Source of the DNA: Halobellus salinus
GTDB taxonomy: Archaea; Halobacteriota; Halobacteria; Halobacteriales; Haloferacaceae
Assembly (NCBI RefSeq): GCF_014646875.1
Contig: NZ_BMOC01000007.1
Coordinates: 62,001-126,000 of the forward strand
DNA: 64,000 bases
Direction of reading: 5' to 3'
Below the pieces are notes generated by a model that saw only the letters and a list, made by a program, of their open reading frames with translations, searched no databases and was not told where the DNA came from. A program made the translations under genes and the position numbers. This document shows, piece after piece, positions 6,870 through 12,053 of this stretch (its first letter is position 1; every line of letters starts with the position of its first letter).

Positions 6870-8243
6870 ATGAACGCGATCTCTTTCGGCACGGACGGGT
6901 GGCGCGCAACCCTCGATACGTTCACCGACGAGCGGGTGCGGATCGTCGGGCAGGCTGTCGCGGACTCCCTCGCAGACGCGGGTCGGGACGACCCCGTGAT
7001 CGTCGGCTACGACGCCAGAGAGACCTCCGAGGGGTTCGCGGAGTCGCTTGCCGACGTACTCTCGGGCAACGGCTTCGATGTCCTCCTCCCGGAGCGGGAC
7101 TGCCCGACTCCCCTCGTCGCGCACGCGGTCGTTGACCGCGGACTCTCCGGCGCGCTGATGATCACGGCGTCGCACAACCCCCCGGAGTACAACGGCGTGA
7201 AGTTCATTCCTGCCGACGGCGCCCCCGCGCTCCCCGAGGTCACCGACGCGATCGCGACCCGCCTCGCCGAGCCGACTCTGCTTCCACCCGCCGAACACGG
7301 CTCGGTCAAGACCGTCGACGTGGTGACGCCCCACGCCGAGCGCGCTCGCGAGTTGGTCGACGCCGACCTTTCGGGGGTCACGGTCGTCTACGACGCGATG
7401 CACGGGTCGGGGCGGGGCGTCACCGACGACCTCCTCCGGTCTGCGGGTGCGGATGTGGTGAGCATCCGCGACGGCCGCGACCCCGAGTTCGGCGGCACGC
7501 CGCCGGAGCCCAGCGCGGAGAACCTCGCCCCCCTGGTCGACGCGGTCAAGGCCCACAACGCGGATCTGGGGGTCGCAAACGACGGCGACGCCGACCGCGT
7601 CGCGTTTGTCACGCCGGGCCGCGGGCACCTCGATGAGAACCTGTTCTACGCCGCGGCGTACGACTACCTGCTCGAATCGGATTCGGGGCCGGCAGTCCGG
7701 ACGGTCTCGACGACCTTTCTGATCGACCGGATCGCCGACGCCCACGGCCACGAAACCGTCGAGACCGCGGTCGGGTTCAAGTGGGTCGCGGAGGCGATGG
7801 CGGACAGTGACGCCCTCATCGGCGGAGAGGAGTCCGGCGGGTTCTCGATCCGCGGCCACGTCCGTGAGAAAGACGGCGTCTTGGTGGGACTGCTCGGCGC
7901 GGCCGCGACCGCCGCGGAGCCCATCGGCGCCCGCGTGGACCGCCTCATCGGCGAGCACGGCGACATCGTCGCCGACAAGATCAGCCTTGAGTGCCCCGAC
8001 AGCGAGAAGCGCCGCGTCATCGACGAGCTTGAAGCGACACTTCCCGAGGACGTCGCCGACCGCGAGGTTGCCGACGTGGTGACGCTCGACGGGTTCAAAC
8101 TCCTGCTCTCGGACGGGTCGTGGCTCTTGGTCCGGCCGTCGGGCACCGAGCCCAAGATGCGCGTCTACGCCGAGGCCGGGAGCCGCGAGCGGGCCGATGC
8201 GCTGCTCGACGCGGGCCGGGATCTGGTCGCGCCGCTCATCTGA
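6870..8243 (+). CDS. phosphohexomutase (phosphoglucosamine/phosphomannomutase family)
   Basis: A 457-residue alpha-D-phosphohexomutase. All four domain signatures are present: TASHNPPEYNGVKF with the phosphoserine (about residues 97-110), the Mg-binding DGDADR (about 237-242), the sugar-binding GEESGG (about 317-322) and the C-terminal phosphate-binding RPSGTEPKMRVY. The enzyme moves phosphate between C1 and C6 of hexose or hexosamine phosphates for glycan and S-layer precursor synthesis. Substrate (glucosamine, mannose or glucose) cannot be fixed from sequence; haloarchaeal relatives are often called GlmM. Start ATG 6870 follows the pattern GGTATGAACG. The 3' end overlaps the convergent GNAT gene by 8 bp. 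Confidence 0.9.
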   Translation: MNAISFGTDGWRATLDTFTDERVRIVGQAVADSLADAGRDDPVIVGYDARETSEGFAESLADVLSGNGFDVLLPERDCPTPLVAHAVVDRGLSGALMITASHNPPEYNGVKFIPADGAPALPEVTDAIATRLAEPTLLPPAEHGSVKTVDVVTPHAERARELVDADLSGVTVVYDAMHGSGRGVTDDLLRSAGADVVSIRDGRDPEFGGTPPEPSAENLAPLVDAVKAHNADLGVANDGDADRVAFVTPGRGHLDENLFYAAAYDYLLESDSGPAVRTVSTTFLIDRIADAHGHETVETAVGFKWVAEAMADSDALIGGEESGGFSIRGHVREKDGVLVGLLGAAATAAEPIGARVDRLIGEHGDIVADKISLECPDSEKRRVIDELEATLPEDVADREVADVVTLDGFKLLLSDGSWLLVRPSGTEPKMRVYAEAGSRERADALLDAGRDLVAPLI

Positions 8244-8712
8244 GGACGCCACGGAGGCGGTCGCGGTCCGAATCCTCCGGGTCGTCCTCCCCCACGCTCT
8301 CCGGCGCGTCGATCGCAAACCCCAGCGACTCGTAGAACGGCCGGACGCTCTCGCGGAACCGCGCGACGAGCGGACCGTCGGTCCGTGCCGCGGCTGTCTC
8401 CACCAGCGACGCGCCGACCCCCCGCCCCCGACGCGACCGATGGACGGCGATCTGTTCGACCTCGGGTGGGCCCGCTCTCGGATCGCTGAGAACGCAAGCG
8501 CCGACCACGCGCTCGTCGCGCCCCGCGGTGTCGCCGTCGGTGGACGCCCGACGCTCCTCACGGCTGTGCCCGCGGACGACCGCCACGAGCACGTCACCGT
8601 CTGTGACCCGGCCCCGGGCTCGCCCGCGGTCGAACTCCAGCATCGCGGCGTCGAGCAGCCGGACCACGCTGTCGGCGTCGCCGTCGGTCGCCTCGCGGAC
8701 GGTGTGGGTCAC
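8236..8712 (-). CDS. GNAT-family N-acetyltransferase
   Basis: A 158-residue GNAT protein beginning with GTG at 8712. It shows the beta4-beta5 region [35 protein letters not shown], where RRGRGVG is the acetyl-CoA pyrophosphate-binding Q/RxxGxG/A loop, and ends with the FYESLGF motif. The substrate is unknown. Its start overlaps the stop of the SAMP2-like gene by four bases (GTGA), implying translational coupling, so the pair forms an operon. It overlaps the phosphohexomutase tail-to-tail. Confidence 0.85.
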
Positions 8713-8939
8713 GACGGGGGGCCGAGAGTTGCGCCCGAGGACCCTCCCTTGATCAATCGGAGCACCCGCACGCGGCCGGCGTCGACGGGTTGGTCCTCGG
8801 GCACGGGGCTTCCGTCGACCATCACAGACACCTCGTGGGGCGAGTAGCCGACCGCCCGCGCGAGGTCGGCGTACGTCGCGTCCGCGGCGACGTCGACGTT
8901 CCGGGTCTCCTCGCCGACGACTTCGACGGTCACGCGCAT
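8709..8939 (-). CDS. samp2: SAMP2-like ubiquitin-like modifier with C-terminal tail
   Basis: A 76-residue beta-grasp protein: [12 protein letters not shown], then [18 protein letters not shown] and [10 protein letters not shown]. This is close to Haloferax SAMP2, which is attached to lysines of target proteins and also serves in tRNA thiolation via the E1-like UbaA. In the known protein the diglycine is the C-terminus; here Gly65-Gly66 is followed by ten further residues ([10 protein letters not shown]) before the stop. Either a protease removes the tail, as for eukaryotic ubiquitin precursors, or this copy cannot conjugate. The stop overlaps the GTG of the GNAT gene. Divergent from rfc, the same neighbourhood as in Haloferax. 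Confidence 0.88.
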
Positions 8940-9068: not shown

Positions 9069-12053
9069 ATGAGCGAGGCCGACGCGCCAGCGGACGCCGC
9101 GGCAGGGCGGGAGATCTGGATCGAGAAGTACCGCCCGGAGCGTTTCGAGGACATCCACGGCCAGGAGGACATCGTCGCTCGCCTCCAGTCGTACGTCGAA
9201 CGCGACGACCTGCCCCACCTGCTCTTTGCGGGGCCGGCGGGTACCGGGAAGTGCGTCACCGGAGACACACCCGTCCTCACGAACCGTGGGATCGAGCGTG
9301 TCGAATCGGTAGTCGGCGACGTCGACGGGTTCGGCACGCCCGACGACGGAGTAGAGGTACTATCACTCACCGACGCAAACGAGTTCGAGTACGTGGAGCC
9401 GTCCCACGTGTTCGGAAAAGAGGCGTCTGAGCTCCGGCGAATCGAGACACGTGACGGAGAGACGATGGAGGTCACGCCGGAGCACAAGCTCCTCGTTCTC
9501 ACGAAGGACGGGCTCACGTGGAAGGAGGCGGATTCCGTCGGCGATGGGGATCGGATCGCACGACCACGGCGCGTTCCGACGCCCCGCGTTCGTGCCGAAT
9601 CGGAATCGACGGCGCAGTCCGATGTACGGCTAAATTGGCTCGAAAACGTCGACGACGAACGCATCCGGATTCGTCTCACCGAGGAGTTCGCATCGGAGCT
9701 CGGACAGCCGAGTACGACCATCTCTCCCGACAGACTCCGAGCACTGGAGCCCGACACGGAAGCGCTCGAAGCCGGCGTCGAGTCGATCCAGTACGTCAAT
9801 TCGGTCGGTAGAGAATCACGACCCGTCACGCCGCCGTGGCGACTGACGCCCGAACTGGCCCGGTTCGTCGGCCTCGCTGTCGCGGAAGCACGCATCGATG
9901 GGGGACGGATCAAGTTCTACAACACCGACAACGACCTCTGCGACGCGTTCGCCGAAGCGGCCCGATCGCTGTTCGGTCTCGAACCGAAACGCGGGACACA
10001 GAAGGATGTACCCTACGTCGCGGTCCGGTCGCAGACGCTCACGCATCTGCTCCGGGAGTCGTTCGATGTCTTCCGGAGCGCGAGCGGCGATCAGGGGATC
10101 GGATCGACGCTCGTGTCCGGCGACGACGAAAGCCGCGCCGCATTCGTTCGAGCGATGTTCGATGGGGAGGCGCACGTCTCCGACAACGGGATCATCGAAC
10201 TGACACAAAAGAACGGAGATCATATCACACTTCTCTCCTATCTCCTCTCGACGTTCGGGATCCCGAGCCGTCGGCAGACGGTCCAGAAGTCGGCGACGAA
10301 CGGTTCGGGCATCGAGCGTGAGTACCACGTGTTGTACGTGTCCGGCGCTCGGAACCTCCGGCAGTTCGCCGACGAGATCGGGTTCAGTATCGAGCGGAAA
10401 CGGCGTCGGGTCGAGACACACGCTCGGAAAGAAGCCAATCCCAACCACGACACGATCCCCCGGCAGCGTGCCGCTCGGCAACTGTGCGCGGAACTGAACC
10501 TCCCTACCCAGTCGCTGCTGTCGGACACGCTCGATCCGGACAGTCCCGGGCGGAAGGCTCACGAATCGGAGCTCGCAGACGTCGTTGCGGCAGCGACGGA
10601 CCGTATCGAGGCGGCACAGGAGACGCTCGCGGCGATCGAACAGCTCTCGTCGGAGCTGAAAAGCGCCACTGCGGCCCCGGCCGAGTGGGTTCGCGCCAGA
10701 GAACAGTTAGAGCCGATAACGTCCCGACGCGACGTATCCGAGTCGACCGGCGTCCGTAGCGATCGGCTGCTGGAGTACGCCGACGGTCGTCGGACCCCGT
10801 ACGTGTCGCGGGTGACGACGTTACTTTCCGAACTCGATGGAGAGGAACGCGACACGACAGCTTCAGATGCAGGCCAAACCGCGAATATCGGACGCCTCAA
10901 CCAGGAACTCTCCGCGTGTGTCGACGCACTAGGGGTCTCGTACGAGCGCGTCGCCGAGGGGACAGACCTACGCGGCACCGACGTGAACCAACTCCTGACG
11001 GCGGACGGTCAGGAACTCGATGGGCTCGTCAGGTTCGAGACCGTCGCCGACCGGCTGCGCGAACTGGCCGACGGGATGCTCTCGCTCGACGTGATCGAAC
11101 GTCTCGATTCGATCTCCCGCGTTGCGGACGCTGATCTGTACTACGACGAGGTGACGAGCGTCGAGACGATCAAGGAGCCGCGGCGCGTCTACGATCTCAC
11201 GGTCCCGTCCTCGCGGAACTACGTCGCCGGGACGAACCCTACCGTGATGCACAACACGACCTCGGCCACTGCCATCGCCCGTGCGGTCTACGGCGACGAC
11301 TGGCAGAACAACTTCCTCGAACTCAACGCCTCCGACGAGCGCGGGATCGACGTGGTGCGCGACCGGATCAAGAACTTCGCGCGGTCGTCGTTCGGCGGGT
11401 ACGACCACCGGGTGATATTCCTCGATGAGGCGGACTCCCTCACGGATGACGCACAGGCAGCACTCCGCCGCACGATGGAGCAGTTCGCGGACAACACCCG
11501 CTTTATCTTGTCGTGTAACTACTCCTCGAAGATCATCGACCCGATCCAGTCGCGGTGTGCGGTGTTCCGGTTCTCCCCGCTCGGCGACGACGCGATCGCG
11601 GCGCAGGTCGAGGAGATCGCCGACGCGGAGGGGATCGAGGTGACCGAAGACGGTCTCGACGCCCTCGTCTACGCCGCAAGCGGCGACATGCGCCGCGCGA
11701 TCAACGCCCTCCAGGCCGCGGCCACGACCGGGGAGGTCGTCGACGAGGAGGCGGTGTATCTGATCACCTCCACCGCCCGCCCCGAGGACATCGAGGAGAT
11801 GGTCGAGGCCGCGATCGACGGCGACTTCGCGGCCGCGCGATCGCAGTTGGAGACGCTGCTCGTCGACACCGGGATGGCCGGGGGCGACATCATCGACCAA
11901 CTCCACCGGTCGGCGTGGGACTTCGACCTCGACGACCGGACCACCATCCGGCTGATGGAGCGGATCGGCGAGGCCGACTACCGGATCACCGCGGGCGCCA
12001 ACGAGCGGGTCCAGTTGGAGGCGCTTCTGGCGTCGCTGGCGGCCGAGGAGTAG
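9069..12053 (+). CDS. rfcS: replication factor C small subunit, intein-containing precursor
   Basis: The 994-residue precursor starts at ATG 9069 ([26 protein letters not shown]). Exteins join to 326 residues, the normal length of an archaeal RFC small subunit, the clamp-loader AAA+ ATPase that places PCNA on primed DNA. The N-extein ends inside Walker A (GPAGTGK, residues 55-61); the C-extein resumes with Thr730 and contains [13 protein letters not shown], the Walker [11 protein letters not shown], the SRC arginine-finger motif ([10 protein letters not shown]) and the collar domain. The intein must splice out to restore GKT, so activity depends on it. Upstream open frame before 9069 is not coding-like. 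Divergent from samp2. Confidence 0.95.
9252..11255 (+). mobile_element. intein with LAGLIDADG homing endonuclease in RFC Walker A
   Basis: The 668-residue insert begins with Cys ([13 protein letters not shown], block A; residue 62) and ends PTVMHN, followed by the extein Thr of GKT. Block B is TPEHKLLVL; block F is [16 protein letters not shown]; block G is VMHN. The endonuclease shows two LAGLIDADG-type motifs, [14 protein letters not shown] (block C, last Gly replaced by Ala) and [13 protein letters not shown] (block E), so it may still cut or be decaying. About 230 residues after block E, including HTH-like helices, may contact DNA. Codon choice looks less GC-biased than the exteins. Insertion in the P-loop is a known RFC intein site in archaea. 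Confidence 0.93.

Follow-up and report, generated by a model that had tools for sequence, protein, structure and literature searches.

The original paper on the desampylase HvJAMM1 is reportedly that of Hepowit in 2012. Linear linkages are among the substrates of HvJAMM1 (PMC4443979, PMC4048286). In vivo the enzyme is required for cleavage of a linear SAMP1-MoaE fusion, which it severs exactly behind the Gly-Gly; the fusion tested was an artificial one (PMC4443979). CsJAMM cleaves the SAMP precursors of Caldiarchaeum (PMC6043591). The original prediction for the locus described here held that maturation by a protease was not established for SAMPs, a statement that these two reports contradict. 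SAMP2 is important for the thiolation of tRNA-Lys(UUU) in Haloferax (PMC4048286). At the level of gene order, the association of samp2 with a GNAT gene was already reported in 2010, as was that of a ubiquitin-like protein (Ubl) with a peroxiredoxin in Thermococcales (PMC2948915).

The window is the whole stretch of Halobellus salinus DNA that was analysed, 64,000 nucleotides in length. The following features of the samp2 region were identified.

8709..8939, minus strand: samp2 open reading frame, a precursor of 76 amino acids plus stop (translation of the frame; NF041919 and PF21965 matches).
8742..8939, minus strand: SAMP2 beta-grasp core, residues 1-66, ending in LRLIKGG (alignment to Haloferax SAMP2; AlphaFold2 pLDDT).
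8712..8741, minus strand: post-diglycine tail, residues 67-76, with predicted cleavage between Gly66 and Ser67 (translation; low pLDDT; equivalent tail in G008, a sister species).
8709..8712, minus strand: GTGA, a four-nucleotide overlap of the samp2 stop and the GNAT start (sequence; same junction in G008).
8236..8712, minus strand: GNAT acetyltransferase of 158 amino acids, second gene of the samp2 operon (Pfam Acetyltransf_7, E 1e-9; neighbour and fusion analysis).

Judged by its sequence, the product of 8709-8939 is a SAMP2 orthologue. The predicted match to Haloferax SAMP2 through LRLIKGG was confirmed: the Haloferax protein (PDB 2l32/4hrs) aligns over residues 1-66 with an E value of 1e-24, the SAMP2 equivalog model NF041919 scores 118.1 bits against a cut-off of 70 (residues 1-66 of 66), and PF21965 scores 111 bits against a cut-off of 27. 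AlphaFold2, run with 15 relatives, modelled the core as E-E-H-E-E with a pLDDT of about 87-91 over residues 1-60 (pTM 0.63), and this model, together with the sequence match to the solved SAMP2, places the core in the beta-grasp fold. The tail is disordered in the same model, with a pLDDT below 50 at residues 66-71. Reading of the frame on the minus strand also bore out the claim that ten residues lie beyond the diglycine and that the stop overlaps the GTG of a GNAT gene. The primary translation product does not end at Gly-Gly (residues 65-66), which is followed by the ten residues and a TGA stop at 8709-8711; this codon overlaps the GNAT start at 8710-8712. The GTGA overlap suggests translational coupling of samp2 and the GNAT gene. 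SAMP2 is single-copy in the home genome. Supply of its function by a second, GG-ended SAMP2 was rejected, because none was found when the whole genome was searched at E 1e-3.

Neighbour comparison across Halobacteriales gave the operon order samp2, an optional AhpC/TSA redoxin gene and GNAT. Gaps between these genes are often small, or the genes overlap slightly, and the redoxin gene comes and goes between close relatives. The GNAT protein of the window is homologous to the domain that is fused behind SAMP2 in two other genera (g18 and g40). A bacterial-type scan found no promoter or terminator, a result that is uninformative for an archaeon. The divergent gene beside samp2 (window 9070-12053, plus strand) encodes the replication factor C small subunit. 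By reading of its translation, this protein carries an apparent intein at the ATP-binding loop, where AGPAGTGK is followed by CVTGDTPV and the host sequence restarts after TNPTVMHN.

A desampylase is encoded elsewhere in the home genome, at G000:C1:85835-86242. It scores 152.8 bits against NF041370, the HvJAMM1 family (cut-off 130), and carries the complete JAMM motif HTHPAGPTHPSTTD, which corresponds to HxH-x7-SxxD. A protease matching a Ubl precursor is therefore present in the same genome as the tailed SAMP2. The genome also encodes a ThiF/UbaA-type E1 (E 2.6e-83 to the ThiF family). The NF041370 desampylases (L139, L127, L138 and L143, for example) are of two sequence types, with either ICALDG.PF.GSWRW or AWRWTGE after the JAMM motif. 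The type switches from genus to genus in the family and also within single genera, which suggests displacement of one by the other.

The SAMP2 of the window is very probably a precursor that is matured by the desampylase, with loss of the stop codon being tolerated where the protease exists. In the proposed process, the folded beta-grasp core would end at Gly66, and the short disordered tail would be cut off between Gly66 and Ser67 by the JAMM/MPN+ desampylase of the NF041370 family. Cleavage would expose the Gly-Gly carboxylate, which UbaA may then adenylate for protein conjugation and tRNA thiolation. Because SAMP2 is important for thiolation, maturation is expected to be necessary in any lineage that has a tailed SAMP2 and no other.

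A SAMP2 match was obtained for 155 of the 170 genomes in the family and for 386 of the 392 in the order. Residues after the Gly-Gly were present in 86 of the 237 genomes whose SAMP2 C-termini were read. The short extensions comprise 1-25 residues, and at the far end of the range SAMP2 is joined in frame to the product of the following operon gene. In genus g21, which by its size is probably Halorubrum, all 31 sampled genomes have tails of 2-25 residues. An in-frame fusion of SAMP2 to GNAT directly after the Gly-Gly is found in each of the nine sampled genomes of g18 and in G181, a member of g40 in another family. Fusions of SAMP2 to an AhpC/TSA redoxin were identified with Pfam in g15, g17, g28 and g44, in Halorussus ruber (285 amino acids, L019) and in one MAG (L020). 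The fused parts span 125-220 residues. The domain joined to SAMP2 corresponds to the gene otherwise next in the operon, so tails and fusions look like the result of stop-codon loss inside the operon.

If the desampylase removes the tail, no genome without a desampylase should have a tailed SAMP2, and this prediction was tested. The home desampylase protein served as query for the family, and NF041370 for the order. A genome was counted as lacking the enzyme when it gave no match or sub-threshold matches only, a status partly inferred from absence in the order match list. SAMP2 ends in Gly-Gly in all 72 desampylase-lacking genomes, which represent 30 genera. Among the desampylase-bearing genomes, 86 of 165 are tailed (26 of 72 genera), a fraction that is inflated in family f1 by preferential sampling of tailed genomes; this oversampling does not affect the absence of tails in the lacking genomes. 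Such an association does not by itself amount to proof, and many desampylase-bearing lineages are without a tail. Fisher's test at the genus level gave P = 3e-5, with genera that are not fully independent, and a family-stratified exact test, which absorbs deep phylogeny and was used in place of a species tree, gave P = 6e-4. The sole lacking genome with extra residues is a 63% complete MAG (G187, L209), whose SAMP2 ends in GGGG and keeps a terminal diglycine. G094, a 79% complete genome of g18, has a SAMP2 match and no desampylase match; it is outside the C-terminus count, and its incompleteness may explain the missing match.

The same distribution bears on the possibility that another protease, such as a second JAMM protein, a carboxypeptidase or the proteasome, removes the tail and that the link to the desampylase is indirect. 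A second PF14464 JAMM protein is present in most genomes, but in g8, g12, g14 and g23 of the home family the members that lack NF041370 keep another such protein and have no tails. This indicates an association with the desampylase specifically, not with JAMM proteins generally, and makes the second JAMM protein an unlikely processor. Exopeptidases could trim short tails of 1-4 residues, whereas trimming of fused parts of 125-220 residues by such enzymes is unlikely, and cleavage of SAMP1-MoaE in vivo required HvJAMM1 itself (PMC4443979). Processing by a different protease is thus improbable.

Prokaryotic Ubl fusions are predicted to be inactive until they are cut (PMC4443979), and a SAMP2 that kept its tail after stop loss would no longer conjugate or carry sulfur, which would leave it a non-covalent role or none. 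Retention of the tail in this sense is very unlikely. All 86 tailed proteins keep the Gly-Gly, even though translation places it inside the chain, and simple decay of the C-terminus would not be limited to desampylase-bearing genomes. Moreover, the tailed protein is the sole SAMP2 of its genome, and in Haloferax SAMP2 plays an important part in tRNA thiolation (PMC4048286). The invariant Gly-Gly, the single copy and the restriction of tails to genomes with a desampylase together give no sign of a functional change. The original prediction had set maturation by a protease against stop-codon loss with altered function. Maturation is strongly favoured and stop loss is suggested as the origin of the tail, while the altered function gained no support.

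The tail is also found beyond this assembly. In G008, the nearest congener (82% protein identity), SAMP2 shares with that of the window the reading frame and the GTGA junction, and its tail of 10 residues starts with SSG. At the DNA level, identity falls from 85% in the core to 60% in the tail. Tails starting with SS occur in most congeners. The other congener tails are SSPR, SSRR, SSR, AE and TR, and two congeners stop exactly at the Gly-Gly. The SAMP2 of Halobellus rufus ends in GG-SSPR and that of Halobellus sp. Atlit-31R at GG, and the tails of Haloferax profundi and Halogranum rubrum are RA and SASSPDGSESR, respectively. The SAMP2 sequences of G012 and G009 match those of the two Halobellus strains, which suggests that genus g1, that of the window, is Halobellus. 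Alignment of orthologues had been proposed as a check on conservation of the tail, and a tail unique to the assembly as a refutation; the tail recurs outside this assembly, so the refutation did not hold, while length and sequence differ among congeners and some of these end at GG. A role of the tail as a conserved functional peptide was rejected, because short tails vary from 1 to 25 residues, are simple in composition (Ala, Gly, Asp, Ser, Arg and Thr) and differ more in DNA than the core does (60% versus 85% identity). The sole recurring feature is the residue directly after the Gly-Gly: 60 of the 86 tailed proteins have Ser or Ala there. Three further congeners (G014, G015 and G016, with 89-99% completeness) gave a desampylase-like match and no SAMP2 match at E 1e-3; their SAMP2 is either lost or too diverged. 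An assembly or sequencing error at the GGGTCC junction, named in the original prediction as a possible refutation and conceivable with a single assembly for the species, has a negligible probability and was rejected, since independent sister genomes have the same architecture, with frame, tail length, SSG start and GTGA overlap shared by G008 and SS tails in most congeners.

Maturation by the desampylase also offers a route by which tails and fusions could arise through loss of the samp2 stop codon. If the enzyme also cuts linear peptide bonds after the Gly-Gly, such a loss would be nearly neutral. The tail would then extend to the next in-frame stop, or SAMP2 would become joined to the redoxin or GNAT encoded directly behind it in the operon, and the lineage would thereby become dependent on the desampylase for mature SAMP2. 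Both the cleavage of the SAMP2 of the window and this dependence are suggested by the comparisons above. A broader proposal is more tentative and falls a little short of probable: haloarchaea may have repeatedly evolved obligate SAMP2 maturation through a neutral ratchet, including polyproteins with operon partners (SAMP2-redoxin and SAMP2-GNAT) in which one JAMM cut frees both parts. Such polyproteins would co-translate modifier and enzyme in equal amounts, and they would be an independently arisen archaeal counterpart of the ubiquitin-ribosomal protein fusions.

If maturation takes place as proposed, the archaeal JAMM desampylase erases SAMP marks and, in many haloarchaea, also makes SAMP2 usable. 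Loss of jamm1 should then abolish SAMP2 function in tailed species and leave it in place where SAMP2 has no tail, as in H. volcanii. A tail of zero, two or ten residues or a whole enzyme, combined with presence or absence of the protease in one order, provides a natural experiment on the origin of ubiquitin-type precursors. As a caution, SAMP2 should not be recognised by a C-terminal Gly-Gly alone, and SAMP2-redoxin and SAMP2-GNAT proteins should not be read as stable bifunctional enzymes.

No earlier literature on haloarchaeal SAMP2 tails, SAMP2-redoxin fusions or SAMP2-GNAT fusions was found in open-licence papers, and their occurrence in desampylase-bearing genomes alone has apparently not been described before, nor have the tails and fusions themselves. 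SAMP2 of Haloferax volcanii (HVO_0202; PDB 2l32 and 4hrs) shares the orthologous core through LRLIKGG, and Haloferax relatives have a GNAT-family operon partner, as in the window. However, the H. volcanii protein ends at Gly66 and needs no maturation, whereas that of the window runs ten residues further. Eukaryotic ubiquitin precursors (ubiquitin-ribosomal protein fusions, polyubiquitin and SUMO) likewise have an extension or a fused protein after the Gly-Gly, although their tails are not homologous to those of SAMP2. They are matured by cysteine-protease DUBs and not by a JAMM enzyme. Ubl-MoaE fusions studied with HvJAMM1 or DrJAMM (PMC4443979, PMC8832034) are also composed of a Ubl with an internal Gly-Gly and a downstream protein released by JAMM; in these, a MoaD-type Ubl is joined to its own sulfur-transfer partner, while in haloarchaea a ThiS-type SAMP2 is joined to a redoxin or GNAT. 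Candidatus Caldiarchaeum subterraneum, with the SAMP precursors Csub_C0702 and Csub_C1603 and CsJAMM, likewise has archaeal Ubl precursors, which are cut by JAMM in vitro (PMC6043591). Its CsUb-pre, cut by CsRpn11, has nine residues after the Gly-Gly (PMC6043591), compared with ten in the SAMP2 of the window. Caldiarchaeum belongs to a different archaeal phylum, and the haloarchaeal tail, whose cleavage is deduced here from comparative evidence, varies within one genus and reaches whole-gene fusions. Ubl precursors are of a known kind, one that includes one other archaeal lineage, and the haloarchaeal series from no tail to fusion, restricted in this sample to genomes with a desampylase, appears to be new.
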